Shown here: positions 22,369-42,544 of the stretch, one piece after another
Layout: every line of letters starts with the position of its first letter
How positions within the stretch are numbered: position 1 is the stretch's first letter
Assembly: GCF_022179805.1 (NCBI RefSeq)
Contig: NZ_BPUO01000008.1
Location: forward strand, 186,001 to 250,000
Origin: Cupriavidus pauculus
GTDB lineage: Bacteria > Pseudomonadota > Gammaproteobacteria > Burkholderiales > Burkholderiaceae
Direction: 5' to 3'
Length of the DNA: 64,000 nt
Position numbers and translations under genes: made by a program
The notes under the pieces: generated by a model
The model's input: only the letters and a program-made list of their open reading frames with translations
Told to the model about the DNA's origin: nothing
Database searches by the model: none

Positions 22369-22836
22369 TCAGGCGGTATGCAGGCCGACGAGGTGGACGC
22401 TCGACAGCACGGCCAGGGCCATATGGAGCACCGTGACCATCGCGGTGCCGGGGTTGCGCAGGCAGGTTTCCACTTGTTCGCTGCGGGCCTGGCCCAGCAG
22501 GCACCACGTGCAGAAGTGCTCGCAGTTGTTGGTCAGCAGGTGGTAGCGGTCTTCGCCCAGGCGGCTGCGGGCGCGGATCACGGCTTCGGTGCCGAGGTAG
22601 CGTGCGCAGGGTTCGGACTTGACTGCCACCGTGTGGCCGTCGGCGAACTGTTCCAGCGAGGTTTCTTCCACCGGGCCGGCGTGCAGCGCGTGGCAGAAGC
22701 CGGTGTAGTGGATCACGCGGCCGCGGCCGGTGTAGATGCCATGGTGGGCGTAGCCATTGCGTTCCGTCACGAGATGGGAGCCGGGCAGGTAGGTATCGTC
22801 CAGGCGGCTGATTTCTTGTTGGTCTTGGGCGTTCAT
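22369..22836 (-). CDS. LRAT-domain protein with C-terminal membrane segment
   Basis: A 155-aa NlpC/P60-superfamily protein. The conserved histidines lie in 'GSHLVTERNGYAHHGIYTG' and 'VIHYTGF', and the LRAT signature 'NNCEHFCTWCL' carries the catalytic cysteine (about C105). Residues 131-150 are hydrophobic and may anchor it. LRAT proteins are thiol acyltransferases or phospholipases, and the superfamily also has peptidases and amidases. A sigma-54 promoter and the shared palindrome lie upstream, tying it to the divergent precursor-peptide gene; it may modify the peptide, which is inference. Confidence 0.82.
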   Translation of the reverse strand: MNAQDQQEISRLDDTYLPGSHLVTERNGYAHHGIYTGRGRVIHYTGFCHALHAGPVEETSLEQFADGHTVAVKSEPCARYLGTEAVIRARSRLGEDRYHLLTNNCEHFCTWCLLGQARSEQVETCLRNPGTAMVTVLHMALAVLSSVHLVGLHTA

Positions 22837-22879
22837 GGCGGGTCTCGATTCGGTGTCGGTGGCTGGCAGTCAGGACTGC

Positions 22880-22896
22880 GTTGGTGCCTACCCAAC
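22880..22896. promoter_or_regulatory. GTYGG-N7-CCRAC palindrome, site 1
   Basis: GTTGG-TGCCTAC-CCAAC, a perfect match, lies between the sigma-54 promoter of the LRAT gene and its start codon. From this place a bound protein would more likely repress than activate. Confidence 0.5.
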
Positions 22897-22897
22897 C

Positions 22898-22912
22898 GCA
22901 TCAAGCGTGCCA
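22898..22912 (-). promoter_or_regulatory. sigma-54 promoter of the LRAT gene
   Basis: The minus strand reads TGGCACGCTTGATGC, with GG and GC exactly ten bases apart as sigma-54 requires (consensus TGGCACG-N4-TTGC). It lies 62 bases before the ATG at 22836. Confidence 0.75.
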
Positions 22913-22977
22913 GTGGACCCGAACCACGGTGAAACATGGGCTGGCGGGATATGGGGCGTTTCCGGCAACGCCAGTTC

Positions 22978-22994
22978 GTCGGCCGCATGCCAAC
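22978..22994. promoter_or_regulatory. GTYGG-N7-CCRAC palindrome, site 2
   Basis: GTCGG-CCGCATG-CCAAC lies midway between the two divergent sigma-54 promoters (66-82 bases above the LRAT promoter), a usual place for an activator site. It is one of a pair with site 3, 34 bases centre to centre. Confidence 0.5.
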
Positions 22995-23011
22995 AGAATC
23001 TTGCGCATTGT

Positions 23012-23028
23012 GTTGGTCGATGGCCGTC
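23012..23028. promoter_or_regulatory. GTYGG-N7-CCRAC palindrome, site 3 (imperfect)
   Basis: GTTGG-TCGATGG-CCGTC has a perfect left arm and three of five bases in the right arm. Its distance of about three helical turns from site 2 would suit cooperative binding of two activator dimers. Confidence 0.4.
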
Positions 23029-23114
23029 AGCGGCATGGTTCACGTTGGGCGGGTTCGGGCGGTTCCGCCAGCCAGCCCGACTGATGGTCGCCAACCACCA
23101 GCCCCGCCGCGAGT

Positions 23115-23131
23115 GTTGGTCGGCTACCAAC
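23115..23131. promoter_or_regulatory. GTYGG-N7-CCRAC palindrome, site 4
   Basis: GTTGG-TCGGCTA-CCAAC is a perfect match, 73 bases upstream of the -24 element of the precursor gene at 23265. The 428-base gap 22837-23264 holds only this regulatory region and the two promoters. Confidence 0.6.
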
Positions 23132-23203
23132 CGCCCCAGCGCCTGAAAAGCCCGATGCGGCACTTCCAGCGATTGGGAAGTCGCGGACATCACATCTATC
23201 GCG

Positions 23204-23218
23204 TGGCACACCGCTTGC
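23204..23218 (+). promoter_or_regulatory. sigma-54 promoter of precursor gene 1
   Basis: TGGCACACCGCTTGC matches the sigma-54 consensus TGGCAC-N5-TTGC exactly, with GG and GC ten bases apart. It is 46 bases before the start codon at 23265, giving a leader of roughly 35 bases. Confidence 0.85.
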
Positions 23219-23264
23219 TCCATACAAGCACCCACTTTCCGATGCCCGCCCAAGGAGACCCATC

Positions 23265-23555
23265 ATGGCGACCGTCACCATCCGCGATCTGAATGCCCAC
23301 CGTGAGCTGGATTTCCGCGCCATGTCGTCCGTGCGGGGCGGCGGCGCACCCTGGGTTTTCGGCTGGATCCAGCCTTATGTGCAGTCGCGCCCCAGCGCGT
23401 TGCCCGTCGTGAACTTTTACGAGATCAACTACAGCTTCTATGCTGATCAGATGAACAATCAGTTCCAGAACGTGAACGTCCAGAACACGGCGCCGAATTC
23501 GACGATTACGGTCGACGCCGCCATGGACGCCCGCAACAAGGGACGACTGGTCTGA
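23265..23555 (+). CDS. double-glycine leader peptide precursor 1
   Basis: A 96-aa protein whose first 26 residues ('MATVTIRDLNAHRELDFRAM' plus 'SSVRGG') match the leader shared by five other genes in this window: I/V-x-DL at 6-9, LD at 15-16, A/S-V/I-R-GG at 22-26. Cleavage after Gly26 would release a 70-residue, cysteine-free core rich in Asn and Gln ('QMNNQFQNVNVQNTAPNSTI'). It has an AAGGAG ribosome site and a sigma-54 promoter. The C39-peptidase exporter is encoded 2.2 kb away. Confidence 0.8.
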   Translation: MATVTIRDLNAHRELDFRAMSSVRGGGAPWVFGWIQPYVQSRPSALPVVNFYEINYSFYADQMNNQFQNVNVQNTAPNSTITVDAAMDARNKGRLV

Positions 23556-23660: not shown

Positions 23661-24440
23661 GTGACCTGCGTATCGCAATTCCGCTGGACCTCGGCCGCGT
23701 GCACAGACGTCGGCCGGGTGCGTGAGCGCAACGAGGACGCTTGCCTGGCCATCCCCGAACAGGGCATCTGGGTGGTGGCCGACGGCATGGGCGGCCATGC
23801 GGTGGGCGATTTCGCCAGTCGCGCGGTGGTCCAGGCGTTGTCGGCGCTGCCCGCGCCTGCGAGCCTGGAGGGCGCTGCCGAGAACGCACGCATTGCGATA
23901 CAGACCGTCAACCAGTTACTGATCGACGAAGCGCTGAAGCTGAAGGTGCGCGTGATCGGCAGCACCGTGGTCGTGCTGCTGGCCTGCGAGCGCCGCTGCA
24001 GTTGCCTGTGGGCCGGCGACAGCCGGCTCTACCTGTTCCGCGACGGCCACCTGAAGCAGCTATCGCGCGACCACAGCCAGGTGGAACGCCTCAAGGCGCG
24101 CGGACTGATCACGGCCGAGGAAGCCCGCCACCACCCCGCCCACAACACCATCACGCGCGCCGTGGGCGCGGCCGCCACGCTCGACCTCGAACGCCTGACG
24201 CTGGAAATCGGCGATGGCGACGTGTTCCTGCTGTGCAGCGACGGCCTGAGCAACGAAGTCGAGGACGACCAGATCGGCGCCATCCTGGCGGCCAACGCCG
24301 CCGACCCCACCATGGCGGCCGACGCGCTGCTGCGGCAGGCGCTCGACAACGGCGGGCGCGACAACGTGTCGGTGGTGGTGATCCGCGCCGAGGACATCGG
24401 CGGCGGCTCGGACATGACGTTGCTGAATCCGGAGGTTTGA
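23661..24440 (+). CDS. PP2C-family Ser/Thr protein phosphatase
   Basis: A 259-aa cytosolic phosphatase started at GTG 23661, six bases after AGGAG. PP2C motifs are complete: 'DVGRVRERNEDA', 'VVADGMGGHAVGD', 'GSTVVVLL', 'WAGDSRLYLFRDG', 'LLCSDGLSNEVEDDQI' and 'GGRDNVSVVVI', containing the aspartates that hold two metal ions. It resembles Stp1/PppA-type enzymes that reverse Hanks-kinase phosphorylation. The obvious partner is the kinase at 38664-40826, and the FHA protein would read the phospho-threonine. It converges on the sigma-54 activator. Confidence 0.92.
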   Translation: MTCVSQFRWTSAACTDVGRVRERNEDACLAIPEQGIWVVADGMGGHAVGDFASRAVVQALSALPAPASLEGAAENARIAIQTVNQLLIDEALKLKVRVIGSTVVVLLACERRCSCLWAGDSRLYLFRDGHLKQLSRDHSQVERLKARGLITAEEARHHPAHNTITRAVGAAATLDLERLTLEIGDGDVFLLCSDGLSNEVEDDQIGAILAANAADPTMAADALLRQALDNGGRDNVSVVVIRAEDIGGGSDMTLLNPEV

Positions 24441-24468: not shown

Positions 24469-25785
24469 CTACTTCCCATCCACCTGCCGGTTGTTCCGGA
24501 AATCCTTCGAGTGGATGCCGTGCTTCTTGAGCAGCATCTGGATGTGGGACCGGTTCATGTCGAAGCGGCGCGCCAGTTCGGCCACCGTGCCGCCCACCTC
24601 CTGCAGGCCGCGCTCCAGGAACGCGCGCTCGGCTTCGTCGCTGGCGGCGCGTTTGGCTTCGCTGAGCGATGTAGCCGTGCTCAGGTCGGTCACGGTTGGC
24701 TTGCCTCCAATGGCGGCCGCCACCGGAGTGCCGGCCGGCTTGGGGCGGATGTCTTGCGGCAGGTGGATGAAATCGGCGGTGTCGCCCGCCAGGCATGACA
24801 GCCGGTACATCAGGTTGCGCAGTTCGCGGATGTTGCCCGGGTATTCGTAGTGCAGCAGGAAGTCGCGCAGCCGGGGCGTCAGCTTCACCGGCCGGCGCTT
24901 GAGCAGGCCGGCCGCCTCGTCACCGAAGTACGCCACCAGCAGCGGAATCTCGTCGCGCCGTTCGCGCAGCGCGGGCAACGTCACGTGGATCACGCTGAGC
25001 CGGTAGAACAGGTCCTCACGGAACGTGCCGTCCTGGCTCATCCTGCGCAGGTCCTTGTTGGTGGCCGCCACGATGCGGGTATCCACGGCGATCACCTCGT
25101 CTGAGCCCACGCGCTGGATCTCGTGTGCCTCCAGCACGCGCAGCAGCTTGACCTGCCCGGTCAGCGGCAGCTCGCCGATTTCGTCGAGAAAGATCGTGCC
25201 GGTATGCGCGCTCTCGAACTTGCCGCGCCGGTCGTTGGCCGCGCCGGTGAAGGCGCCCTTCTTGTGTCCGAACAGTTCGGACTCCAGCAGGCTGTCGGGA
25301 ATCGCGCCGCAGTTCACCGAGATGAACGGCTTCTCGTTGCGCACGCCGTTGGCGTGGATCACCTTGGCCATCAGCTCCTTGCCCGTGCCGCTCTCGCCGT
25401 CGATCAGCACGGGCAGATCGGTAGGCGCCGCCTTCTCGGCGATTTCCAGTGATTCCAGCAGCTTCGGATTGTCGCCAAACGTGCCCTCGAAGATAAAGCT
25501 GCGCTCCATCAGCGCCTGGCGCCGCTCGCGGGCGGACATCTCCACCGGCTCCACCACTTCTTCCTCGGGCTCGCCCGTGGCCGACGCGGCGGCGACAAAG
25601 CGCTCCTTGTGCGACAGGCCCATCACCTCGTCACGCAGCGTAGTGGCCTGCTTGAGCAGCTTCTCGATGTCGGGGCGTTCCAGCCGCGAAGACCAGCGCA
25701 GCGTGGAGCGCAGGATCTCGATCCGTTCGATCAGGCCCGCGAACGACACCGCGGACGTGGCAGGGGTGGGGTTGTATAGCTTCAT
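24469..25785 (-). CDS. sigma-54-dependent transcriptional activator
   Basis: A 438-aa enhancer-binding protein. After a 95-residue N-terminal region that is neither a receiver nor a PAS or GAF domain comes the AAA+ domain with Walker A 'GESGTGKE' (130-137), the sigma-54-contacting GAFTGA loop (177-182) and 'GTIFLDEIGEL'. A Fis-type helix-turn-helix ends the protein ('GGTVAELARRFDMNRSHIQM'). Its ATG overlaps the exporter stop (ATGA), making it the last gene of the export operon. It is the obvious regulator for the four sigma-54 promoters here. Confidence 0.93.
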   Translation of the reverse strand: MKLYNPTPATSAVSFAGLIERIEILRSTLRWSSRLERPDIEKLLKQATTLRDEVMGLSHKERFVAAASATGEPEEEVVEPVEMSARERRQALMERSFIFEGTFGDNPKLLESLEIAEKAAPTDLPVLIDGESGTGKELMAKVIHANGVRNEKPFISVNCGAIPDSLLESELFGHKKGAFTGAANDRRGKFESAHTGTIFLDEIGELPLTGQVKLLRVLEAHEIQRVGSDEVIAVDTRIVAATNKDLRRMSQDGTFREDLFYRLSVIHVTLPALRERRDEIPLLVAYFGDEAAGLLKRRPVKLTPRLRDFLLHYEYPGNIRELRNLMYRLSCLAGDTADFIHLPQDIRPKPAGTPVAAAIGGKPTVTDLSTATSLSEAKRAASDEAERAFLERGLQEVGGTVAELARRFDMNRSHIQMLLKKHGIHSKDFRNNRQVDGK

Positions 25786-28700
25786 GCCGCGCTCAACTGC
25801 TTCTGGACCAACTGGTAGTACATGCCGCGGCGCTCCAGCAATTCCTCATGCCGCCCCTGCTCCACGATGCCGCCTTCGTACAGCACCAGGATCTTGTCCG
25901 CCTGCATGATCGTGCTGAGCCGGTGCGCAATGATCACGGCCGTGCGGCCACGCAGGATTTCCTGCATGTTCGCCAGGATGTTGCTTTCCGACTGCGTGTC
26001 CAGCGCCGACGTGGCCTCGTCGAACACCAGCAGGCGCGGATCGTGATACAGCGCGCGGGCAATGCACAGCCGCTGGATCTGCCCGCCCGACAACCCGATG
26101 CCGCGCTCCCCCACCACCTGCTCGTAGCCGAGCGGCAGCTTGGAGATGAACGCGTGGGCGTCGGCCATCTTGGCCACCTCCTCGATGCGGCGCCGGTCGG
26201 GGCTGTCCTCGCCGCAGGCGATGTTCTCGGCCACGGTGCCCGAGAACAGCAGGTTGGTCTGCATCACATAGCCCACCTGCGCGCGGAAGAACTCGGTGTC
26301 GATCACGTTCATGTCGTAGCCGTCCACCTTCATCGACCCGTCCGACGGCTTGTAGAAGCCCACCAGTAGCTTGGCCAGCGTGGTCTTGCCCGACCCGCTG
26401 CGTCCGACGATGGCCACCATCTCGCCGGGCCGCATATGGAAGCTGATGTTCTCCAGCACGTAGGGCGTGTCCTCGCCGCCGTAGCGGAAGTACACGCCAT
26501 CGAACTGGATCTCGCCCTGCAGGTCTGGCAGCGACACGCGCGACATCACGTCCGTCGCGCTCTGCTCGGGCTCCAGGTCCAGCACGTCGCCCAGCCGCTC
26601 CATGGCCACGCCCGCGTCATTCAGTTGCCCCCACAACGCCACCAGCCCCATCAGCGGGGCCAGCACGCTGCCCATGAACGCGTTGAACGCAATGAGCTGG
26701 CCAATTGTCAGTTCGCGCTCCAGCACCAGCGTGGCGCCCACCCACAGGATGGTGATCGTGGTGGCCGCGTTCAGCACCTGGCTGACCAGCCCCACGAGGA
26801 TGTGGAACGACTGCGCCTGGTACTGCTTGTCCAGCGCCTTGGCGTACTTGCGTTCCCAGCGCAGCCGCACGGGCCGCTCGATGCCCATGCCCTTGACGGT
26901 CTCCGCGCCGCCGAGCGTTTCCATCAGATACGCCTTGGCATCGGTCGAGGCCGCGAACACCTCGCGTGCGTAGGTCTTGACCTTGGGCGTCACCACCACC
27001 GTCAGCGCCGCGATCGGTATCACGAACGCAATCAGCAGCAGCGTCAGCTTCACGTTGTAGAGGAACATGATGCTGAAGTAGATGAACACCATCAGCAGGT
27101 TCAGGGCCGTGGTCACCGTGGACTCGGTCAGGAACGCGCGGATGGTCTGGTTTTCCTGGAAGCGCGCGAAGATGTCGCCGGTCTTGCGCTTGGCGAAGAA
27201 CCCCAGCGGCAGTGACAGCGTGTGCTTGAAGAAGTGCGACATCATCGCGAAGTCCATATTGCGGACCATGAAGTTCGCCAGATACGCACGTATGGTGACC
27301 ATGAGCTGTGTGAAGACATTGGAGATCACCAGCCCCAGTATCAGCAGGTGCAGCAGCCCGATGTTCTGGTGCACCACCACGCCATCGAGGATGTTCTGGA
27401 TGATCAGCGGCGGCACCACGCCCAGCACCTGGATCACGAACGTAGCCAGGAACAGATGCCCGAGGATGCGCTTGTACGGTGACAGGTAACTGATGAACCG
27501 CAGCCACGGCGACCGCGACACCGCCAGCTCGTTCATCTGGGCACCGGGCGAGAACAGCAGGCAGGTGCCGCTCCAGCCGCGCTCGAATTCCTCGGTGCTC
27601 ATCTTGCGGAAGCCGATGGCCGGGTCCGCTATCCACACATAGCGCGACGACACGCCGTAGACCACCACGTAGTGATAGCCCTCCCAGTGGATGATGAACG
27701 GCAGCTCGAATCCCATCAGCGCATCGCGCGTGCACTGCACGCCGCGCGCCGTGAAGCCCAGCGATTCGCCCGCACGCGCCAGGCTGTCCAGCGTGGCGCC
27801 GGCCGTCGTCACATTGGCCAGTTCGCGCAGCTTGCCCAACGTCATCGGAATGCCGTAGTGGCGGCACACCATCGCCAGGCACGCGGCGCCGCAGTCCATC
27901 TCCTCGGCCTGCTCCACCAGCGCGAAGCGGCGGATCAACCGTTCGCCCAGTTCGGGCTTGGAATGCAGGTCCAGCAGCACGGGCCGCTTGCGCCGCTCGG
28001 CCAGTTTCTTCTGCCGGTGCAGTTCGCGATCCACGGTGCGGATGCGTTCCTCCAGCACCTCGCGCAGGCGCGCATTGCGCTCCAGGATCAACTGGACGGT
28101 CTTCTCCGGAATTACCAGCAGCCGCGTGTCGGTCTCGGCGACGACCGATGCCACCTGCTCCTGCCGCATCACGCAGGCCCGCTCGCCAAAGATCTCGCCC
28201 TGCCCCAGCGTGGCCAGCGCAAACATATCGCCGTCTTCCTCACGCTCCACGCGCACCGTGCCCTGGCGCACCACGTAGAGACGGCGGTCCTCGCGGCCGT
28301 CCTGCTGCAGGATGGTCTTGCCCGCCGCCACGCGCTTCACGCCCACGCTGCGCACCGCGTCTTCCAGTTCCGTCTTGTCCAGCTTGCCGCGCAGATCGAA
28401 CAGCCGCGCCACGAAGCCGCCCGCTGAACTGATGGCCACGTAGCTCGTGATAAACGCCAGCGCAGCCGGATTACCACCCACCGCCGGCTCCGACACGCTG
28501 CGCGGAATCACGATCAGCTCGGTCTTGCCCGACGCCCGCACCGACGACTCATGCCGATACTCGCGCAGCAGCGCGATATCGGCGAACACCTCGCCGGTCT
28601 TGCGCACGCCCATGCTGATTTCCTTGCCGTGTTCCTCGTTGAACACGCGCACGGACCCTGCACGCACGATAAAGATGCCGTCGGCGGGCTCGCCCGCATT

Positions 28701-28880
28701 GCACACCGTGTCGCCAAAGCCGAAATGCAGCGTTTGCGCACTGGCGGCCAGCCGCTCGATCTCGTCGCGCGTCAGCGGCGACAGGATCTCCACGGTCGCC
28801 AGGAAGTCGGCCAGCGACTGCCCGACGGGCGACTGCGGGGCCGGCGCGGCGGCCGCTTCGCTAGCGGGCTTCGATGACAT
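25782..28880 (-). CDS. peptidase-containing ABC exporter with two cNMP-binding-like domains
   Basis: A 1032-aa inner-membrane exporter of HetC-like layout. Residues about 25-150 and 165-290 are two cyclic-nucleotide-binding-type beta-barrels ('GDTVCNAGEPADGIFIVRAG', 'GQGEIFGERACVMRQEQVAS'). A C39 peptidase follows with Cys330 in 'EEMDCGAACLAMVCRHYG', histidine in 'HWEGYHYVVVYG' and 'WIADPAIG'. Then come six membrane helices and an ABC domain ('GRSGSGKTTLAKLL', 'LSGGQIQR', 'LLVFDEATSALD'). C39 domains cut double-glycine leaders during export, which fits the six precursors. It overlaps PpiC upstream and the activator downstream. Confidence 0.93.
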   Translation of the reverse strand: MSSKPASEAAAAPAPQSPVGQSLADFLATVEILSPLTRDEIERLAASAQTLHFGFGDTVCNAGEPADGIFIVRAGSVRVFNEEHGKEISMGVRKTGEVFADIALLREYRHESSVRASGKTELIVIPRSVSEPAVGGNPAALAFITSYVAISSAGGFVARLFDLRGKLDKTELEDAVRSVGVKRVAAGKTILQQDGREDRRLYVVRQGTVRVEREEDGDMFALATLGQGEIFGERACVMRQEQVASVVAETDTRLLVIPEKTVQLILERNARLREVLEERIRTVDRELHRQKKLAERRKRPVLLDLHSKPELGERLIRRFALVEQAEEMDCGAACLAMVCRHYGIPMTLGKLRELANVTTAGATLDSLARAGESLGFTARGVQCTRDALMGFELPFIIHWEGYHYVVVYGVSSRYVWIADPAIGFRKMSTEEFERGWSGTCLLFSPGAQMNELAVSRSPWLRFISYLSPYKRILGHLFLATFVIQVLGVVPPLIIQNILDGVVVHQNIGLLHLLILGLVISNVFTQLMVTIRAYLANFMVRNMDFAMMSHFFKHTLSLPLGFFAKRKTGDIFARFQENQTIRAFLTESTVTTALNLLMVFIYFSIMFLYNVKLTLLLIAFVIPIAALTVVVTPKVKTYAREVFAASTDAKAYLMETLGGAETVKGMGIERPVRLRWERKYAKALDKQYQAQSFHILVGLVSQVLNAATTITILWVGATLVLERELTIGQLIAFNAFMGSVLAPLMGLVALWGQLNDAGVAMERLGDVLDLEPEQSATDVMSRVSLPDLQGEIQFDGVYFRYGGEDTPYVLENISFHMRPGEMVAIVGRSGSGKTTLAKLLVGFYKPSDGSMKVDGYDMNVIDTEFFRAQVGYVMQTNLLFSGTVAENIACGEDSPDRRRIEEVAKMADAHAFISKLPLGYEQVVGERGIGLSGGQIQRLCIARALYHDPRLLVFDEATSALDTQSESNILANMQEILRGRTAVIIAHRLSTIMQADKILVLYEGGIVEQGRHEELLERRGMYYQLVQKQLSAA

Positions 28881-29613
28881 GTTCCTGCGCCCTCGCCATC
28901 AGCCATTCCTCGCGCAACAGCCGCCGGATCTCCACCACCACGTCGGGGTCCAGCCGCGCGGGATGCTTGGCGCGCACCAGGAACACCTCGAAGAATGATT
29001 TGTCCGGCGCCGGAAACGGCCCCAGCAGGTCGCCAGCCTCGGCATTGAACACGCGGGCCTCGATATCGCCCTTGAGCGAGCCGCGCAGCACCTTGCCGAT
29101 ATCGCCGCCCTGCTCGCGCGTATCGGCAATCGAGTGCTCGCGGGCCATCTCGGCAAAGCTGTCGGGGTCGTCCTGCAGATACGACACCAGTTCCTTGGCC
29201 TTGCCTTCGGTATCCACCACGATATGGCTGACCTCGATACTGTCGAACTTCGGCGAGTTGAGCTGGAAGTACGTCTCCACGGCCTGTTCCGTGCCCACCT
29301 GCTCCATCATCTTTTCCTGGTACAGGCTGTCGGTGATGAAGTTCTCGAACTCGTCCAGCGTGATGTTCAGCGCGTCCAGGTAGTGGTTCATGTCCGACGC
29401 GCGGTGCAGGCCGTGCACGCGCCGGAACTGATCCGCGCGCTCCTGCACCTCTTCCGGCGAAAGCTTCACGCCGTGCCGGCGCGCCGCGTGCGCGGTCAGC
29501 TTGTCTCGCACCAACTGCTCCACCAGCCCCTCGAACTGGCCGGTCAGCTTCAGCACCCTCACGAATTCGTCGACGCCGATCACTTCGTCGTCGATGCGTA
29601 CGATGGCTGTCAT
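28861..29613 (-). CDS. PpiC-type peptidyl-prolyl isomerase/chaperone
   Basis: A 250-aa protein starting after a GAGGAG ribosome site. It has an N-terminal SurA-like helical region ('VEQLVRDKLTAHAARRHGVK') and a parvulin domain ('VSHIVVDTEGKAKELVSYLQ', 'FAEMAREHSIADTREQGGDI', 'GLGPFPAP'-like end 'LLGPFPAPDKSFFEVFLV'). No signal peptide is visible, so it may act on the cytoplasmic side, presenting precursor peptides to the exporter. A PpiC/HlyD/peptidase-ABC trio is also found in cyanobacteria. Its 3' end overlaps the exporter start by 20 bases. Confidence 0.85.
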   Translation of the reverse strand: MTAIVRIDDEVIGVDEFVRVLKLTGQFEGLVEQLVRDKLTAHAARRHGVKLSPEEVQERADQFRRVHGLHRASDMNHYLDALNITLDEFENFITDSLYQEKMMEQVGTEQAVETYFQLNSPKFDSIEVSHIVVDTEGKAKELVSYLQDDPDSFAEMAREHSIADTREQGGDIGKVLRGSLKGDIEARVFNAEAGDLLGPFPAPDKSFFEVFLVRAKHPARLDPDVVVEIRRLLREEWLMARAQEHVIEAR

Positions 29614-35572: not shown

Positions 35573-35839
35573 TCAAGCGTTGTTCTGGGCGTACTGGTTC
35601 GTCGTCACGTTGTTGTGCATATGGTCCTGGAAGGCCGAGCCGTTACCGAAGTAGTTGGCCACCGACTGCATCTGCTGGTTCGATTGCGTGATCGTCTTGT
35701 GCGAGTCGAACGACAGGCTCACCGGCGTGTAGATCGAGGTGTACGGGGCAAACAGTGCGATACCGCCGCGTACTGCCTGCAGCTTCTTGGCGTCGAGGGT
35801 TTTGGTCGAGGACAGGTCTTTGATGGTCAGCGTGGTCAT
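35573..35839 (-). CDS. double-glycine leader peptide precursor 2
   Basis: An 88-aa precursor with the shared 26-residue leader ('MTTLTIKDLSSTKTLDAKKL' plus 'QAVRGG') and a 62-residue core without cysteine. The core ends with 'NYFGNGSAFQDHMHNNVTTN' and 'QYAQNNA', almost identical to precursors 3 and 4. AGGAG lies seven bases before the ATG. The promoter region is a near copy of that of precursor 3, in opposite orientation. Likely cleaved and exported by the C39 transporter. Confidence 0.82.
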   Translation of the reverse strand: MTTLTIKDLSSTKTLDAKKLQAVRGGIALFAPYTSIYTPVSLSFDSHKTITQSNQQMQSVANYFGNGSAFQDHMHNNVTTNQYAQNNA

Positions 35840-35921
35840 GATGGTCTCCTAGAGAAGGAAGGTGCTGCTTTGGGTCAGGTTTGTCGAGCATCGGGTTGGT
35901 GTCGCGCTCGGACCAGATATC

Positions 35922-35936
35922 GCAGCAAGCGTGCCA
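35922..35936 (-). promoter_or_regulatory. sigma-54 promoter of precursor gene 2
   Basis: The minus strand reads TGGCACGCTTGCTGC (GG and GC ten bases apart), identical to the promoter at 41102. It is 83 bases before the start codon. The 330-base gap 35840-36169 contains this promoter, the palindrome at 36037 and a terminator. Confidence 0.85.
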
Positions 35937-36036
35937 GCCCGGGCCAGGCCGATGAAAAAAGTCTGGAAACGCTTGTAGAGCAAGGCTTTGCGGGTTTCGG
36001 ACGGAGATTTCGCTGACGGCCAGCGCCAGGCAAGGT

Positions 36037-36053
36037 GTTGGACGGTCACCGAC
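36037..36053. promoter_or_regulatory. GTYGG-N7-CCRAC palindrome, site 5
   Basis: GTTGG-ACGGTCA-CCGAC lies about 100 bases upstream of the -24 element of precursor gene 2, a normal enhancer position. It overlaps another inverted repeat, GGACGG-N10-CCGTCC. An A-tract (about 35953) lies between site and promoter. Confidence 0.55.
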
Positions 36054-36087
36054 AGCCGTCCACACACTGTTGGCTTGCGCCGCTCAC

Positions 36088-36169: not shown

Positions 36170-36694
36170 TCATTTCACATAGATCGTGATCTTCTTCGAG
36201 TAGATCGGGGGATTGGTCGGGATGTGCTTCTCGTCGCCCATCAGCAGTTGCAGCGTGTGCTTGCCCGGCGGCAACTCGATGGTGGTTTCCGTTTCGCCCG
36301 CGCCAAAGTGCAGGTGGTTGCGGTCGTTCGGGATTTCCTTGTCCAGCGGTGGCAGGTCGACATCGATCAGCAGGTGGTGGTGGCCCGTGTTCGGATACTT
36401 GACGTCCTTGGGCGCCACGCCCATGTTGCGCAGCCCGAACCACACCTTGATGGGCTTGCCCGCCTGCAGCGTCTGGTTGTTGTTCGGGAAGCCAATATAG
36501 AGATAGGCATTCTTCGGTGCCGGCGTGGGCCCCGAGGCCGCGCTGGCGGCTGCGGGCGCCATGGCGTGGCCGGCATGGGGCGACGATGCCGTGGGGGCGG
36601 ACGCATCGGCGGCGCGCGCCAGGCCCGCGTACAGCATGGCACCGGCGGACAGCAACGTCATGCCCGCGATAAGCATCGGTCTGAAATGGGTCAT
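36170..36694 (-). CDS. DUF4399 periplasmic protein, copy A
   Basis: A 174-aa exported protein: signal peptide to about residue 28 ('LYAGLARA-AD'), a low-complexity Ala/Ser/Pro linker with 'SPHAGHAMAP', and a DUF4399 domain with 'YPNTGHHHLLIDVDLPPLDK' and 'PNDRNHLHFGAGETETTIEL'. The histidine clusters suggest metal or glycan binding. It shares its domain with the next gene at about 75% by eye, so they are tandem duplicates. The fold is beta-rich with no recognised catalytic site. Confidence 0.82.
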   Translation of the reverse strand: MTHFRPMLIAGMTLLSAGAMLYAGLARAADASAPTASSPHAGHAMAPAAASAASGPTPAPKNAYLYIGFPNNNQTLQAGKPIKVWFGLRNMGVAPKDVKYPNTGHHHLLIDVDLPPLDKEIPNDRNHLHFGAGETETTIELPPGKHTLQLLMGDEKHIPTNPPIYSKKITIYVK

Positions 36695-36720: not shown

Positions 36721-37149
36721 CTAGCGCACAGTGATCGTGATCTTCTTGGAGTAAATCGGCGGATCGAACGGTACATGTTTGCTGTCGCCCAGCAGCAGCT
36801 GCAACGTGTGCTTGCCCGGAGGCAGTTCGATGCGCGCGTCGGTTTCACCGGCGCCAAAGTGCAGGTGATTGCGATCGTTCGGGATTTCCTTGTCCAGCGG
36901 CGGCAGGTCGACGTCGATCAGCAGATGGTGATGTCCGCAGTTTGGCCGTTCGATGCCCTTGGGACAGACGCCCATGCCCTTGAGCCCCATGCGCACCCAG
37001 AGCTTGCCGCCCTCGATGACCGTGCCGTCGGCGGGCCAGATGATGTACGTCTCCGCGCCCTTGGGGGCCGGCGTGAGCGGTATCGCGAATGTCGTCCAAC
37101 TGGCCAGGAATGCGGCCGCGAGCGCGTGCAGCAGGGATCGTCTGGACAT
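36721..37149 (-). CDS. DUF4399 periplasmic protein, copy B
   Basis: A 142-aa protein started at ATG 37149 behind a GGGAGGAG ribosome site. It has a signal peptide ('SLLHALAAAFLASWTTFAIP') and the DUF4399 domain ('RPNCGHHHLLIDVDLPPLDK', 'LHFGAGETDARIELPPGKHT'). Unlike copy A it lacks the linker and has a cysteine before the HHH cluster ('NCGHHH'). Only 26 bases separate the genes, so they are co-transcribed. Their link to the peptide system rests on position. Confidence 0.8.
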   Translation of the reverse strand: MSRRSLLHALAAAFLASWTTFAIPLTPAPKGAETYIIWPADGTVIEGGKLWVRMGLKGMGVCPKGIERPNCGHHHLLIDVDLPPLDKEIPNDRNHLHFGAGETDARIELPPGKHTLQLLLGDSKHVPFDPPIYSKKITITVR

Positions 37150-37373
37150 GGCGGCTCCTCCCGGAGAACTGTCCGCTTCACACGGTATTCCCGCGGGGGA
37201 GCGGATTCTTGGTGGATGTTCTTGATGCGCTCGGCGATGTGTCCTGAAGCGTAGGTCGGAAGACACCAAAAAGCGAACTTTCACGCCACAAGGGCTGTGC
37301 TATCTTGAAACGGCCGGTACCGCGTCTCGGCAACTCCACACCGCATGCCGCGGCGATCCTGAAGGGGATGAAT

Positions 37374-38642
37374 ATGTGGCGGAAAGCATTTTTCGTAGCG
37401 CTGCTGGCACTCGGCCCGGGAATGGATGCGGCGTTGCATGGGCCACCATCGGGCAACGCATGGCCTGGCGCCAGCCTGCTGCCGCCATCAGCCCACGCAG
37501 GCATCCTGCCCAAGAACAGCGACGAGCAGTACGAACTGACGTTCTGGGATTCGATCAAGAACAGTACCTACGCCGCGGACTACGAGGCCTATCTGAAGCA
37601 GTACCCCAATGGGCGCTTCGCGGCGCTGGCCAAGTCCCGGCTCGAACGCATCAAGGCCACCGCGCCAGCACAGGCCGCGCAGCCCCCGGCCGCCCAGCCC
37701 CCAGCCACCAAGCCCGACACCAAGGCGGAAGCGAAGCCCGAGCCGCCCAAGCCCGCACCCGCCGCCAAGCCCACGCCTGCCCCGGCACCCACGCCGCCCA
37801 CGGCCGGCGCCGCCGGGCAGCCGCGCACGCGCGCGGGTGGCGCGATTGCGCAGGGAACGGTGACCTATCCGGCCGAAGGCAAGGAAGCGCCAGCCGGCGG
37901 CGCGGCAAGGCCGGCCGAGGCGCGTGGCGCGGAGTCGCGCGACTGTCCGCAGTGCCCGGTGATGATCGCCGTGAATCCGGGCGGCTTCACGATGGGCAGC
38001 AATACCAGCGATCCCGCCGAGAAGCCGCCGCATCACGTGAACGTGGGCAATGCGTTCGCCATCGGCAAGTACGAGGTCACGGTGGAGCAGTGGAACGTGT
38101 GCGCCGACGCCAACGCCTGCCCGCGCATCGCCACCAACCCGCCCGAGGCCAAGAACGCGCCCGTCCGTGACGTCAGCTGGGACGACGCGCAGCAGTACGT
38201 GGCGTGGCTGTCGAAGACCACCGGCAAGACCTATCGCCTGCCCACTGAAGCCGAATGGGAATACGCGGCGCGCGGCGGCACCAGCTCCGCGTTCTGGTGG
38301 GGCGACAAGATGAGCAAGGGCAACGCCAACTGCAAGGACTGCGGCGACCCATGGAGCGACGCCGCGCCGGCCAACGTCGGGTCGTTCGCGGCCAACCCGT
38401 TCGGCTTGCACGATATGAACGGCAGCGTCTGGGAATGGGTGTCCGATTGCTGGCACAGCTCGTACAAGAACGCGCCGACCGATGGCAGGTCCTGGGAAGA
38501 GCCGGCCTGCACGGCACGCGTGATCCGAGGCGGATCGTGGCGCGAGGGCGCCAGCTACATGGTGTCATCCACGCGCTTCAAGTACAGCTCCAGCGTGCGG
38601 CAGTCGCAGAACGGGTTCCGCGTGTTGCGGGATGCAAAGTAG
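37374..38642 (+). CDS. SUMF1/FGE-fold exported protein
   Basis: A 422-aa protein started at ATG 37374, seven bases from GAAGGGG. An N-terminal hydrophobic signal ('[14 protein letters not shown]') precedes a segment ('[20 protein letters not shown]') resembling the small domain often placed before such modules, then a Pro/Ala-rich linker and a SUMF1 domain (about 205-422: 'GGFTMGSN', '[18 protein letters not shown]', '[16 protein letters not shown]', '[17 protein letters not shown]', '[17 protein letters not shown]'). The copper-binding cysteine pair of true formylglycine generators is absent after 'RGGSW', so it is probably a binding module. Convergent with the kinase. Confidence 0.82.
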
Positions 38643-38663: not shown

Positions 38664-40826
38664 CTACTTGGCGCGTGTCGAGATCTGCACGATGTCGGCG
38701 CTGATCTGATCGCGCCCCAGCTTGCCGGCCATCTGCGCCAGCGGCTTTTCCAGCGCGCGCAGGTATTCCTGGCGCGTTTCCACTTCGGGCCGCCGCGTGG
38801 TGAACAGCGGCGCGGGCGTGGTCAGCAGCACCACCAGTTCGGTACCGAACGGCTTCGAGATGACCCAATCCCCGCTGTCGCCCACCGTGGCGCTGTAGCT
38901 GGCCGGCGCCTGGTTGCCCTGGATGCGTCCGCTGGGCACAAGGTGGGCCACCTTGCCATCGGCCGAGAAATAATCAACATAGACATACGAGTCGTGCGGC
39001 GGCGTATTGATGTCGAGCACCAGCGGCGTGCCTTCGGCCAGTTGCGTGCCGCCGCGTGTGCGCAGCGCTGCCCCGGCCTTTTCTCCGGCCTTGCGGCCGC
39101 CCGACCAGTAGGGCGCGACCAGCCGCACCACATCGCACTTGTCGTTGGCCAGCGGCTGGGCGTCGAGCTTAAGCGATTTCACGCCCGACACCTTGTTGAG
39201 CTTGTCGCGCAGGCCGTCCGCCGCCGACTCGGCAACGTAGCCGCTAACCAGCAGCGTGTTGCCTTCGATGTTGGCGGTCAACAGCGAGCACGGCGTGGCC
39301 GCGATCACCTGGGCCACTGCTTCGGGTTTCAGCGGCACCGCCTCCGGTGGCGGCGGCGCGGAAGGAGTGGACGGTGCCGGTGCTTCGGCCTGCGTCGGCG
39401 GCGTGGTGTCCGGCGTCGACACGTGGTTGCGCCAGAAGTAGACCAGCACGCCAGTGGCCAGCGCCACGCCGGCAATCACGCTGCCGGCAATCACCGGCAG
39501 GCGCACGCCGCCTTCCTGCGTCTCGCCGCCAAGGCCGGCGAGGAACTGCTTGACCGTCGGCGTACGCGTGGCGCGGTCCAGCGACAACGCCTGGCGCAAC
39601 GCCTTCCACTGCCCACGCGATAGCGCCTTGGGCTGCTCGGGACGCAGGCTCTTGACGCGTGCCTCGGCGGCCGACATCCGGTTGAACGGATGCCGCCCGG
39701 TCAGCAGCTCGTAGCTGACGCAGGCCAGCGCGTAGATATCGTCACGCGGATCGGGCTCGCGATGCTCGAACATCTCCGGGCTGGCGTAGGCCGGCGTCAT
39801 GCCGCCCAGCGATCCCGGATCGAACACGGTCTGATCGGCGTCGTCGGCAGGCTGCTGGAAGCCGCGCGCAATGCCGAAGTCGATGACCTTGACCTCGCCG
39901 CGATCGGTCAGGAACACGTTGGCGGGCTTGAAGTCGCAATGCACGAAGCCGCGCTCGTGCGCGTAGGCCAGCGCGCTGCCCATGCCGACGATGATCGGCA
40001 TGGCTTTTATGTATGGCAGCCCCTGGAACTCGGGCGTGCGCAGCACCCGGTTGAGCGACTTGCCCTGCAGGTATTCCATGGTCAGGAAGACCGTGGGGCC
40101 GTCGCGGTCGAAGTCGTACACCGTGACGATGTTCCGGTGCGCCAGTTGCTGTGCCTTGCGCGCCTCGCGCTGCAGGGCGATCAGTGATTTTGGATGGCCG
40201 CTGAACTGCATGTTCAGCACCTTGATGGCGATGTACGGCTTGCGGTCTGATGCTTCGAGCTTGCGCAGGTCCAGCGCCTTGTAGACCGTGCCCATGCCGC
40301 CCACGCCCAGGCATTCCTCCAGCACGAACCGCCCGTTCAGCGTATCGCCCACGCCCTTGGTGGGTCCCGACGGCACGTAACCGCCCGTGAAATGTCCGCT
40401 CTGGCCACCAGTACTGCTACCGGTATTGCTGCCCGTGTTGCTTCCCGTATTGCTGCCTGTATTGCCCGTGTGGCCGCCCGTCATGCCGCTGAGCGGCGAC
40501 GGTGCCTCGGGCACGATGCGGGTTTCCTCGCCAGGCATGTCGTGCCGCGCATCGTGCTGCGTGTCGTGCTGAACCGGATGCTGCACTTCGCCCACCGGGT
40601 CGAACTGGGTGGCCATGTGCGAGTCGATGCGATGCATGACTTCGGCGTAGACGGCCGGCGGCAATGGAAATCGCGTGTGCTCCTCGGAGAGCACGCGGGC
40701 GAACTGCGTGGAGTCGGTCTGATCGTCCTTGAGGGCCAAATCCACCGATGCGAGGAATTCGTCGCGGCTCAAACTGCCCCGCTGAAAATTCCGTATGAGT
40801 TCGGTCAGGCTGGACATCCGGTGCAT
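38664..40826 (-). CDS. Hanks-type Ser/Thr protein kinase with DUF4384 domain
   Basis: A 720-aa membrane kinase. A Gly/Asn/Thr/Ser linker with near-perfect 'NTGS' repeats (about 121-139) precedes the kinase domain (about 165-430): 'LGVGGMGTVYKA', 'IAIKVLN' (Lys202), 'VHCDFKPANVFL' (Asp298, with Cys in place of the Arg of HRD), 'VIDFGIARG' (Asp316) and 'PAYASPEMFEH'. One transmembrane helix (about 443-465) leads to a periplasmic region ending in a DUF4384-like domain ('DSYVYVDYFSADGKVAHLVP'). The start could also be the ATG at 40817. It is the likely writer for the PP2C/FHA circuit. Confidence 0.92.
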   Translation of the reverse strand: MHRMSSLTELIRNFQRGSLSRDEFLASVDLALKDDQTDSTQFARVLSEEHTRFPLPPAVYAEVMHRIDSHMATQFDPVGEVQHPVQHDTQHDARHDMPGEETRIVPEAPSPLSGMTGGHTGNTGSNTGSNTGSNTGSSTGGQSGHFTGGYVPSGPTKGVGDTLNGRFVLEECLGVGGMGTVYKALDLRKLEASDRKPYIAIKVLNMQFSGHPKSLIALQREARKAQQLAHRNIVTVYDFDRDGPTVFLTMEYLQGKSLNRVLRTPEFQGLPYIKAMPIIVGMGSALAYAHERGFVHCDFKPANVFLTDRGEVKVIDFGIARGFQQPADDADQTVFDPGSLGGMTPAYASPEMFEHREPDPRDDIYALACVSYELLTGRHPFNRMSAAEARVKSLRPEQPKALSRGQWKALRQALSLDRATRTPTVKQFLAGLGGETQEGGVRLPVIAGSVIAGVALATGVLVYFWRNHVSTPDTTPPTQAEAPAPSTPSAPPPPEAVPLKPEAVAQVIAATPCSLLTANIEGNTLLVSGYVAESAADGLRDKLNKVSGVKSLKLDAQPLANDKCDVVRLVAPYWSGGRKAGEKAGAALRTRGGTQLAEGTPLVLDINTPPHDSYVYVDYFSADGKVAHLVPSGRIQGNQAPASYSATVGDSGDWVISKPFGTELVVLLTTPAPLFTTRRPEVETRQEYLRALEKPLAQMAGKLGRDQISADIVQISTRAK

Positions 40827-40974
40827 CCCGACGAGTAGTTTTGAGGCGGAACCGTTGCGTCACGGCGCATGGCCTTCGATGGATACTAGTGCGCACTCCG
40901 GCCATTCGCAATCCCACACTGCGGCGCCGCGCCACCTTGCCCGTTGCTGCCGCGCAGACACCCGACACCTTTCT

Positions 40975-40991
40975 GTTGGCCGGGCCCCATC
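40975..40991. promoter_or_regulatory. GTYGG-N7-CCRAC palindrome, site 6
   Basis: GTTGG-CCGGGCC-CCATC, one mismatch from consensus, lies 111 bases upstream of the -24 element of the precursor 3 promoter, nearly the same spacing as at precursor 2. A T8 tract (about 41076) lies between, as an A-tract does at precursor 2. The 373-base gap 40827-41199 holds only this regulatory region. Confidence 0.5.
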
Positions 40992-41101
40992 ACTTCGCGG
41001 GCCACCGCCCTGCCGCGCCGGCCAGGCCCACACCACCCGTTTTCCCGCAAACCCTTGTGCCACAACGCCTCGCCGTTTTTTTTCGCGGACATGGCCCGCG
41101 C

Positions 41102-41116
41102 TGGCACGCTTGCTGC
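41102..41116 (+). promoter_or_regulatory. sigma-54 promoter of the precursor 3-4(-5-6) operon
   Basis: TGGCACGCTTGCTGC has GG and GC exactly ten bases apart. The surrounding roughly 100 bases, to the ribosome site TAGGAGACCA, are nearly identical to those of precursor gene 2 on the other strand. Confidence 0.85.
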
Positions 41117-41199
41117 GATATCTGGTCCGAGCGCGACACCAACCCGATGCTCGACAAACCTGACCCAAAGCACCACCTTCCTTACCTTAGGAGACCACC

Positions 41200-41475
41200 A
41201 TGACCACGCTGACCATCAAGGACCTGTCCTCGACCGAAACCCTCGACGCCAAGAAGCGGCAAGCCGTACGCGGCGGCATCGCCTTCCTGCCCGTTACCAC
41301 CGTCTACAGCCCGTTCAAGCTGTCGGTCGACAAGGTGTTCGACGTCAAGCAGTCGAACCAGCAAATGCAGGAAGTCACGAACTACTTCGGCAACGGCTCG
41401 GCCTTCCAGGAAAACATGCACAACAACGTGACGACGAACCAGTACGCGCAGAACAACGTGTACCACCCCGCCTGA
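41200..41475 (+). CDS. double-glycine leader peptide precursor 3
   Basis: A 91-aa precursor: leader 'MTTLTIKDLSSTETLDAKKR' plus 'QAVRGG', then a 65-residue core 'IAFLPVTTVYSPFKLSVDKV...' ending 'YFGNGSAFQENMHNNVTTNQ', 'YAQNNVYHPA'. It differs from precursor 2 by few leader residues but has a divergent middle, and its end is extended by 'VYHPA'. First gene behind the sigma-54 promoter at 41102 and likely the head of a run of four precursor genes. Confidence 0.82.
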   Translation: MTTLTIKDLSSTETLDAKKRQAVRGGIAFLPVTTVYSPFKLSVDKVFDVKQSNQQMQEVTNYFGNGSAFQENMHNNVTTNQYAQNNVYHPA

Positions 41476-41552
41476 GCACGGACGCACCCAGGTTTTACAC
41501 CGGCACCATCGCCACCCATCGCCTTACCATCATCGCCCCTTAGGAGACTGCC

Positions 41553-41819
41553 ATGAGCACCCTGACCATCCTCGACCTGTCCAGCACCACCACCCTCGAA
41601 GCCACCCGCATGAAGTCGGTACGCGGCGGCCTGGGCCTGATCGCCCCGTGGACCAGCGTCTACGCCCCGGTGAAGCTGTCGTTCGACTCGCACGTCAAGA
41701 TCGACCAGCAGAACCAGCAGATGCAGCAGGTCGGCAACTACTTCGGCAACGGTTCCGCGTTCCAGGAACATATGCACAACAACGTGACGACGAACCAGTA
41801 CGCCCAGAACAACGCCTGA
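41553..41819 (+). CDS. double-glycine leader peptide precursor 4
   Basis: An 88-aa precursor: leader 'MSTLTILDLSSTTTLEATRM' plus 'KSVRGG', core 'LGLIAPWTSVYAPVKLSFDS...NYFGNGSAF', 'QEHMHNNVTTNQYAQNNA'. Precursors 2 and 4 agree over most of their cores. It has its own TAGGAG site but no sigma-54 promoter of its own, so it is probably read from 41102, 77 bases after precursor 3. Confidence 0.82.
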   Translation: MSTLTILDLSSTTTLEATRMKSVRGGLGLIAPWTSVYAPVKLSFDSHVKIDQQNQQMQQVGNYFGNGSAFQEHMHNNVTTNQYAQNNA

Positions 41820-41827
41820 TTCGCCAG

Positions 41828-41858
41828 GCTGGCGGGCAGCGCCCTCGCGCCCGCCAGC
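41828..41858 (+). terminator. hairpin between precursors 4 and 5
   Basis: GCTGGCGGGC...GCCCGCCAGC forms a strong hairpin without a T-run directly after the precursor 4 stop. It may protect the upstream mRNA 3' end or partly stop transcription, lowering expression of precursors 5 and 6. Confidence 0.5.
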
Positions 41859-41904
41859 ACCGGCCCACATCAGACACGCCGCATCCGCCTTCAAGGAGTC
41901 CACC

Positions 41905-42177
41905 ATGTCATCGATCATCGTCCGCGACCTTGCCGTCAGCAAGGACCTCGACCAACAATCGCTGCGCGCCATCCGTGGCGGCGCAGACTGGCTCGGCAAG
42001 ATAGCCGCCACCGGCCCGCTGGCCAACGTCAACGTCAATATCAACCAGAGCGTGCAGCAGCTGCAGCAGGTGAACGTTGCCGCGTTCAACAACAACAAGA
42101 TTGTCGGCGTCGACCTGGGCAACCTCGCGCTGAACATCAAGCCGACGCAATGGGGCGGCAACCTGGCAGTGGCCTGA
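41905..42177 (+). CDS. double-glycine leader peptide precursor 5
   Basis: A 90-aa precursor: leader 'MSSIIVRDLAVSKDLDQQSL' plus 'RAIRGG'; core of 64 residues 'ADWLGKIAATGPLANVNVNI', 'NQSVQQLQQVNVAAFNNNKI', ending 'QWGGNLAVA'. The core is unrelated in detail to precursors 2-4 but again Asn/Gln/Val-rich and cysteine-free. AAGGAG precedes the ATG. It is the most diverged of the group with a full-length core. Confidence 0.78.
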   Translation: MSSIIVRDLAVSKDLDQQSLRAIRGGADWLGKIAATGPLANVNVNINQSVQQLQQVNVAAFNNNKIVGVDLGNLALNIKPTQWGGNLAVA

Positions 42178-42328
42178 GTGCCGCGCGTCCAGGAGCGGTC
42201 CTGTCTCGTGCGCTGCGCATGCGGCGGGACCGTTCGCCTATACTGAATCGGGCCCGCGCCTGCCCCGGCGCTGCCCGACCGGTGCCATTCAGGCCGGCCG
42301 CGGCGAGGCCCGTATGCTGGAGAACGCC

Positions 42329-42544
42329 ATGGCAGTGATCGTCATCAAGGATTTGTCGGAGAACATGGACCTCGACCGCGAGGCCATGACGGCCATCATC
42401 GGTGGCGCACGGCTTGCCGGCAGCTATCGCTGGCAAGCGCACCGACGCCCCACGCTTGCACGACTGATCCAGTATCCGGAGGGATTCCCCGGCACATCGC
42501 AGGTTGCAGGGCAGGAACGGGAGACCAAAGCCACGCGCAAGTAA
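42329..42544 (+). CDS. double-glycine leader peptide precursor 6
   Basis: A 71-aa protein from ATG 42329, six bases after GGAG; an ATG five codons earlier is possible. The leader 'MAVIVIKDLSENMDLDREAM' plus 'TAIIGG' keeps the GG at 25-26 but has Ile instead of Arg before it. The 45-residue core is basic ('RWQAHRRPTLARLIQYPEGF...', 'QERETKATRK') and unlike the neutral Asn/Gln-rich cores of the others. A possible -10 box TATACT lies at about 42239, so it may also have its own promoter. Confidence 0.7.
   Translation: MAVIVIKDLSENMDLDREAMTAIIGGARLAGSYRWQAHRRPTLARLIQYPEGFPGTSQVAGQERETKATRK

Follow-up and report, generated by a model that had tools for sequence, protein, structure and literature searches.

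A conserved gene cluster of Cupriavidus pauculus predicted to secrete double-glycine leader peptides under sigma-54 control

Overview of the cluster

We have analysed a gene cluster at positions 22369-42544 of a 64,000-nucleotide stretch of Cupriavidus pauculus DNA (contig NZ_BPUO01000008.1, positions 186,001 to 250,000 of the forward strand), and this whole stretch is called the window below. The cluster carries six small precursor genes with double-glycine (GG) leaders, as well as genes for an ATP-binding cassette (ABC) exporter with a C39 peptidase domain, a PpiC-type rotamase, a HlyD-type membrane fusion protein, an outer-membrane factor (OMF), a sigma-54 activator, a Ser/Thr kinase, a PP2C phosphatase, a protein with two FHA domains (2xFHA protein), and LRAT, DUF4399 and SUMF1-like proteins (Table 1). 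Judged from its sequence, the cluster would be one long-type peptidase-containing ABC transporter (PCAT) type I secretion system making extracellular matrix peptides under sigma-54 control, and we give this reading a probability of roughly 0.6. The genes named in a preliminary description of the window were all confirmed at their places by the list of open reading frames (ORFs), by their translations and by family-model scans.

Co-inheritance and conservation

In 299 genomes of the family, searched for the exporter at E<=1e-200 and with the precursor profile at E<=0.001, precursors and exporter occurred together in 104 genomes, neither was found in 190, precursors only in five, and the exporter only in none. 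The Fisher test gives p ~3e-75 for this association, a value not to be taken literally since the genomes are related; the two genome lists were compared by eye, and the negatives are mostly known by count. Precursors lacking the exporter in most relatives had been set beforehand as the observation that would speak against the system, and the outcome is in its favour, only 5 of the 109 precursor-bearing family genomes being of this kind. One of these five (G333) retains a piece of the exporter, 62% identical and interrupted by two stops, and the other four are without a close ortholog; among the 104 exporter genomes, the exporter is a partial match in one (G287) and has an internal stop in another (G161).

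Within the genus, a full-length exporter with 82-96% identity was found in 28 of the 35 other genomes. In these 28 loci and in the window, the genes stand, within the reach of each stretch, in the order LRAT-PP2C-activator-exporter-PpiC-HlyD-FHA-OMF-DUF4399-SUMF1-kinase. Of these genus loci, 9/29 lack LRAT and 2/29 lack PP2C, and the kinase is present in 25/29, the other four stretches ending before its position.

Genomes with species or strain names were scanned in addition (280 relatives, of which the best 80 of 280 loci were kept), and the cluster was found among these in Cupriavidus, Paraburkholderia, Caballeronia, Noviherbaspirillum, Herbaspirillum, Aromatoleum and Trinickia, the nearest named exporter matches being those of Cupriavidus sp. 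U2, Ralstonia sp. 25mfcol4.1 and Cupriavidus sp. D384. When only loci with DNA reaching far enough are considered, and a gene is counted in the right place, on the right strand and with at least 35% identity, the activator stands beside the exporter in 79/79 and PpiC in 78/78 loci, and PP2C, HlyD, FHA, OMF, DUF4399 and LRAT are present in 70/78, 71/78, 70/76, 68/74, 63/72 and 57/78, respectively. If a hit anywhere in the locus is accepted, LRAT and PP2C are counted 59 and 73 times instead of 57 and 70, and the rest stay the same. A recognisable precursor was found in 73 of the 80 loci (none in L133, L135, L143, L151, L165, L172 and L179).

The seven named loci without HlyD belong to Noviherbaspirillum (six) and Herbaspirillum (one). 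In all five Noviherbaspirillum genomes searched, a HlyD of 73-74% identity is encoded at another place, immediately next to an FHA relative, and the unit is thus split, with HlyD and FHA kept together, and not lost. A class-level search of 369 genomes gave, besides the own exporter, two exporters of 68-72% identity outside the family and seven distant ones of 35-37% identity. The genome comparison as a whole supports one co-inherited precursor-exporter unit with its own sigma-54 control, as had been proposed, and the word self-contained used for it is a little too strong, given the LRAT gene missing from its place in 21/78 named loci, the Noviherbaspirillum split and some far-off precursors.

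Precursor peptides

The claim that six precursors share a 26-residue leader ending in GG was borne out by translations and alignment, and all six leaders have M1, D8, L9, L15, G25 and G26 in common. Because a profile built from the six recovers only those six from the own 6.8-Mb genome at E<=1, the leader is no chance pattern. We have collected 207 precursors from 49 genomes (29 of the genus and 20 of other family members), these being 207 of 210 leader hits kept at a score of at least 14 and a length of at least 55 residues; the three dropped have 34-39 residues. Among 142 distinct leaders, L occupies position -12 in 97%, M or L position -7 in 99%, and V or I position -4 in 98%, and this is the spacing which C39 peptidases read; the GG or GA leader end was a selection rule and hence is no test of the pattern.

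The precursors have been divided into four classes by our own text patterns: class A (..WVFGWI.., precursor 1; n=44), class B (precursors 2, 3 and 6; n=104, a remainder class that takes in divergent types such as those of G028), class C (..ANVNVNVNQ.., precursor 4; n=27) and class D (short and basic, precursor 5; n=32). Mean core lengths by class are 49-70 residues. Asn and Gln together make up 21-25% of the class A-C cores, as compared with 7% in 15 larger window proteins, and these cores have few charges and almost no Cys. When the window genes are compared with up to eight relatives, the ratio of nonsynonymous to synonymous substitution (dN/dS) is 0.08-0.29 in precursor 1, 0.14-0.84 in precursor 4 and 0.09-0.46 in precursor 5; in class B it spans 0.06-1.2, and here the estimate is blurred by paralogy.

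No Pfam family was found for the 34 precursors scanned, and one of the 34, precursor 6, was above an NCBIfam cut-off (TIGR01847 bacteriocin leader, 17.8 bits against 15.7, E 0.0035). Weak NCBIfam matches to HrpE (1/34, E 0.0015) and to the TIGR04149 GG-leader model for ribosomally synthesized and post-translationally modified peptides (6/34, best E 0.0078) were judged uninformative. When PDB sequences were searched with class B cores, haemoglobin chains were the only matches (best E 1e-4), judged to be chance from composition, and class C cores had no match.

Family genomes have up to 17 precursor-profile matches, some of which lie at a great distance from the exporter or not even on its contig. 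Near the exporter of G007, G016 and G029, no precursor other than a class D gene was seen, and the G016 genome nevertheless has 17 profile matches. Class B copies often flank the DUF4399-kinase block in inverted orientation; in the window, 35572-35994 and 41044-41820 contain class B precursors and their promoters as inverted repeats, up to 93% identical over 95 nt. Some facing class B pairs encode identical proteins in G022 and G023, which suggests gene conversion or inversion. Divergent precursors with the same leader and other cores (SAFSLVGGN.., SNFNIGN.., ..DQANATQQ..) were observed in G028, L177 and L184, and the exporter may therefore accept many cores.

Sigma-54 promoters and a palindrome

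The cluster has the pattern of a sigma-54 regulon with a local activator, since -24/-12 sites before target genes and an AAA+ protein with the GAFTGA motif are found in the same locus. With a score of at least 13 within 160 bases upstream, a sigma-54-type site precedes 42/44 class A and 65/104 class B genes, as compared with 1.3% of 6000 random windows. Such a site is also found upstream of LRAT in 28/37 cases including the window (random windows 2.6%), and each of the other cluster genes has such sites in 0 to 2 cases. A precursor gene that lacks such a site may be transcribed together with the gene before it.

Counting of dyads upstream of 108 sigma-54-type promoters led to GTTGG-N7-CCAAC. 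The extended form TGTTGG-N7-CCAACA, allowing at most two mismatches of 12, lies upstream of 95/108 of them (70/72 in the genus and 25/36 in other genera), to be read with the fact that the palindrome was found and tested on the same promoters. Random windows contain it in 2.8% (genus) and 2.0% (other genera), wrong spacers give 1-15/72 genus and 0-5/36 other-genus promoters, and reversed half-sites give 0 and 3, respectively. Four of its 11 occurrences in the own genome at no more than one mismatch are within the cluster, and three of these immediately precede the promoters that belong to precursors 1, 6 and 2. The activator, encoded in the same gene run, would be the natural binder of the palindrome; the Pfam scan gave no receiver-domain hit in it.

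Outside the cluster, the palindrome and a sigma-54-like site were found on own contig C4 (80168-83057; L254:8166-11058) before an operon encoding a Gly-rich protein and a C39 peptidase. The Gly-rich protein, which is also rich in Asn and Ser, has 519 aa and is secreted, the peptidase is periplasmic and FapD-related (151 bits against a cut-off of 330), and the operon looks, by these features, like a Fap-like functional amyloid locus; the FapD-like peptidase is present in 37/40 Cupriavidus genomes searched. In a set of 33 genus loci (the own and 32 others, after removal of L293 and L304 for insufficient length; from G014 an ORF fragment only was obtained), the sigma-54 site is found in 25/33, with or without the exporter cluster. 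A shared regulon was rejected and the operon was not taken as evidence of common control, because the palindrome is limited to the own locus and four close relatives among the 33. Two further palindrome/sigma-54 pairs (L212 and L218) have no convincing target gene.

Exporter and proposed mechanism

The exporter has a C39 domain with the Cys-His-Asp set fused to ABC membrane and ATPase domains, as in a PCAT. C330, H403 and D419, which we take to be the C39 catalytic residues, are invariant in ten aligned exporters. All NHLP bacteriocin export models stayed under their cut-offs (in bits, cut-off in brackets: TIGR03796 564.5 (853.3), TIGR03797 396.9 (709.4) and TIGR03794 77.1 (156.2)).

In the mechanism that we propose, this exporter, a long-type PCAT with two cyclic-nucleotide-binding (CNB)-like domains, C39 and ABC in one chain, would form one type I secretion system with HlyD, OMF and PpiC. 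The PpiC rotamase, in which no signal peptide was seen by eye, is probably cytoplasmic and probably holds the precursors; C39 would cut after the GG leader, and the cores would leave the cell in one step through HlyD and OMF. The activator would bind TGTTGG-N7-CCAACA and turn on class A and class B precursors and LRAT. The transmembrane (TM) kinase, PP2C and the 2xFHA protein, which may signal to the exporter, would probably gate export post-translationally as a phospho-Thr relay, and the LRAT, DUF4399 and SUMF1-like proteins may act on the peptides. A Ser/Thr kinase and an FHA module are joined to an export machine also in the threonine phosphorylation pathway of the type VI secretion system; scans of the cluster proteins revealed no gene of that secretion system.

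The class A-C cores, nearly Cys-free, rich in Asn and Gln and with many paralogues, would most likely build or coat an extracellular matrix. This structural role fits the cores best because of their composition, their copy number, the lack of a recognised immunity gene and the amyloid precedent of EbfG1-3 described below. It is tentative, and on balance doubtful, that the products are small amyloid-like peptides of a hitherto undescribed matrix secretion system of soil Burkholderiales, which has a dedicated sigma-54 activator and in which release is gated both by nucleotide binding to the CNB domains of the exporter and by the kinase-phosphatase-FHA relay.

Comparison with known systems

Export cores of this kind have been described before. 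According to the accessible text of Wang et al. (2011; PMC3140520), cyanobacterial bacteriocin groups I, II and VI combine a long-type CAP_ED-C39-ABC exporter with HlyD and a SurA-type rotamase, together with GG precursors, as does the cluster here; the same text names no sigma-54 activator, kinase, phosphatase or FHA protein for them, and the precursor sequences are other than those of the window. In a plasmid stretch of Nostoc sp. HK-01, the exporter is 43% identical to that of the window over C39-ABC, HlyD is 24% identical (E 1e-32), two PpiC-like proteins are 29% (E 4e-21) and 27% (E 1e-18) identical, and tandem small GGG proteins lie beside this trio; neither a sigma-54 activator nor a kinase, a phosphatase or an FHA protein is annotated in the stretch.

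Several small GG proteins with a C39 exporter are known also from Synechococcus elongatus (PteB and EbfG1-4), where, in the portions of the reports at hand, the C39 Cys of PteB is needed for efficient secretion and PteB aids EbfG secretion (PMC4997328), and EbfG1-3 form amyloid (PMC9981879). That system is cyanobacterial and differently regulated. HetC of Nostoc PCC 7120 has a cyclic nucleotide monophosphate (cNMP) domain, C39 and ABC in one chain, by description, and its cNMP domain binds guanosine tetraphosphate (ppGpp) in vitro; it differs in being part of the heterocyst programme and, as far as the available text describes it, in having one cNMP domain as against two Pfam cNMP domains here (PMC10986499). 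For Rv1747/PknF, the portion of the literature seen describes an FHA-bearing ABC transporter with its cognate kinase. As in the window, a Ser/Thr kinase and an FHA module thus go with an export machine; the FHA domains of the window are, unlike in Rv1747, in a separate protein.

It had been stated that no described system has the full set. A targeted literature search found none among the freely accessible papers listed, and to this extent the statement stands, with the restriction that the export core has the cyanobacterial counterpart given above. The novelty lies in the precursor families, in the circuit of sigma-54 promoters and palindrome, and in the attached set of kinase, phosphatase and FHA protein, and the OMF also sets the cluster apart. 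The 207 precursors in 49 genomes have no Pfam family, and many related bacteria from soil and plants carry the gene set with its order largely preserved. If the proposed reading is true, C39-exported matrix or signal peptides extend from cyanobacteria to betaproteobacteria, with a phospho-signalling layer added. Since promoter, palindrome and activator make a defined circuit, expression, export and function are directly testable.

Weighing of the explanations

In addition to the shared promoter set of the palindrome test, a number of observations weigh against a sigma-54-controlled matrix system. A sigma-54-type site was found near 0/27 class C and 1/32 class D genes, none being near the class D precursor at 42329-42544. 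At the looser score of 12, the whole window has 70 sites against 28-70 in shuffled sequence, and the signal is therefore in position and conservation. The 11 palindromes of the own genome are to be set against nine for a reversed-pattern control, so that the signal is in their placing rather than in their number, and the one copy without mismatches, the fourth in the cluster, is located within the OMF gene and has no sigma-54 site nearby. No DNA-binding or helix-turn-helix (HTH) model of Pfam matched the activator, in which an HTH-like C-terminal stretch was seen by eye. The class D cores, with 17% Lys and Arg, are unlike those of other classes. Strand-type alternation is marked in class C only (mean z 1.6) and weak in class B (z 0.9) and class A (z 0.4), class A leaning to helix spacing instead (z 0.9), and the curli and Fap models matched none of the 34 precursors (Pfam E<=1, NCBIfam E<=0.1). 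The matrix role rests on composition and analogy. Finally, in a small tree with long branches and one cyanobacterial sequence only, the exporter of Nostoc falls among short-type and other ABC sequences (support 0.94), apart from the proteobacterial long types, and we therefore regard the cluster as alike in kind and have not filed it as a member of a cyanobacterial group.

A GG leader, a C39 exporter and HlyD are the classical microcin export set, and with all three present the cores might be bacteriocins that inhibit related bacteria, the paralogues being a toxin set. The basic class D cores and the match of precursor 6 to the bacteriocin leader model point the same way, as does the naming of the related cyanobacterial clusters as bacteriocin clusters in the accessible text on them. 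We consider this unlikely, because the cores are nearly Cys-free, class A is under purifying selection (dN/dS as above) and kept across genera, no immunity gene was recognised among the annotated ORFs (a systematic search for one was not made), and EbfG, the functionally tested GG set, serves biofilm formation in the portions of the reports available. From composition and the analogy to EbfG, extracellular matrix or adhesive peptides are the most likely product, rather than bacteriocins.

The exported peptides might otherwise be pheromones or differentiation signals, as was proposed for HetC in Nostoc, a cNMP-C39-ABC exporter needed for heterocyst differentiation according to the text at hand; several conserved peptide classes with a dedicated regulator would suit such a role. 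Cores averaging 49-70 residues in several near-identical copies are more like structural subunits, and no peptide-receptor gene was noticed in the cluster, where a systematic search for one was not made, and signalling thus appears improbable to us. It is also conceivable, at rather low odds, that two neighbouring systems are present, the export/precursor/activator unit and a merely adjacent kinase-SUMF1-DUF4399 block. A kinase homologue is on the other side of the cluster in G302, G252 and G167, DUF4399 is missing from 9/72 named loci and LRAT is not constant either, and the Noviherbaspirillum split leaves HlyD with FHA. A single system is favoured by the overlap of the FHA and HlyD genes, by PP2C and FHA in place in most named loci, and by the kinase in every genus locus whose stretch reaches its position.

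Organization of the locus and neighbouring genes

The coordinates of the features are listed in Table 1. The genes FHA, HlyD, PpiC, exporter and activator follow each other in this order on the minus strand, and FHA/HlyD, PpiC/exporter and exporter/activator overlap, with a gap of about 17 bases between HlyD and PpiC. Because the genes overlap or nearly abut, this run suggests one operon. The leader alignment of precursor 5 starts at the ATG at 42329, and the listed ORF opens at 42314.

Table 1. Positions of the genes and candidate control sites of the cluster in the window.
Feature	Position	Strand	Evidence or remark
LRAT-domain protein	22369..22836	-	Pfam PF04970 81 bits; NCEHF stretch by eye
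Sigma-54-like site of LRAT gene	22912	-	motif score
Candidate enhancer palindrome TGTTGGTCGGCTACCAACC before precursor 1	23114..23132		
Sigma-54 -24/-12-like site TGGCACACCGCTTGC of precursor 1	23204..23220	+	
Precursor 1, class A	23265..23555	+	leader residues 1-26 ending GG
PP2C phosphatase, Stp1-like	23661..24440	+	PF13672 60 bits; NF033484 213 bits, under cut-off 230
Sigma-54 activator, AAA+ with GAFTGA	24469..25785	-	PF00158 234 bits
Exporter: two CNB, C39 peptidase, ABC membrane and ATPase domains	25782..28880	-	PF00027 x2, PF03412, PF00664, PF00005
PpiC-type rotamase	28861..29613	-	PF00639 44 bits; TIGR04500 90 bits, under cut-off 180
HlyD-type membrane fusion protein	29631..31013	-	PF13437; TIGR01843 155 bits, under cut-off 209
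2xFHA protein	31010..33637	-	PF00498 x2; TM helix by eye; long C-terminal part without assigned fold
OMF, NodT type	33848..35329	-	TIGR01845 302 bits, above cut-off 210; lipoprotein signal by eye
Precursor 6, class B	35573..35839	-	leader alignment and profile
Sigma-54-like site TGGCACGCTTGCTGC of precursor 6	35920..35936	-	
Candidate enhancer palindrome before precursor 6	36036..36054		
DUF4399 protein	36170..36694	-	PF14347 124 bits; signal peptide by eye
Second DUF4399 protein	36721..37284	-	PF14347 127 bits
SUMF1/FGE-like protein	37368..38642	+	PF03781 194 bits; signal peptide by eye
Ser/Thr kinase	38664..40826	-	PF00069 133 bits; DUF4384 PF14326 28 bits; HCDFKPAN and DFG; TM helix by eye
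Candidate enhancer palindrome before precursor 2	40974..40992		
Sigma-54-like site TGGCACGCTTGCTGC of precursor 2	41102..41118	+	
Precursor 2, class B	41200..41475	+	leader alignment and profile
Precursor 3, class B	41553..41819	+	leader alignment and profile
Precursor 4, class C	41905..42177	+	leader alignment and profile
Precursor 5, class D, basic core	42329..42544	+	leader alignment and profile

The two tandem DUF4399 genes (36170-37284) have a 271-nt repeat in common, which is 77% identical, and their products share the His-containing stretch GHHHLLIDVDLPPLDKEIPNDRNHLHFGAGET. A tRNA-Arg gene (22038-22112) and two acyltransferase genes lie to the left of the cluster. The acyltransferase genes are not conserved with the cluster, and the tRNA is present in 6/7 genus loci tested; together with a DEAD helicase neighbour in 21/29 genus loci, the latter speaks for old inheritance, and a recent tRNA-borne island, which was also considered, is less probable. 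EgtB- and EgtD-like genes are found next door at 45414-48058 of the window, and these are presumably for ergothioneine synthesis.

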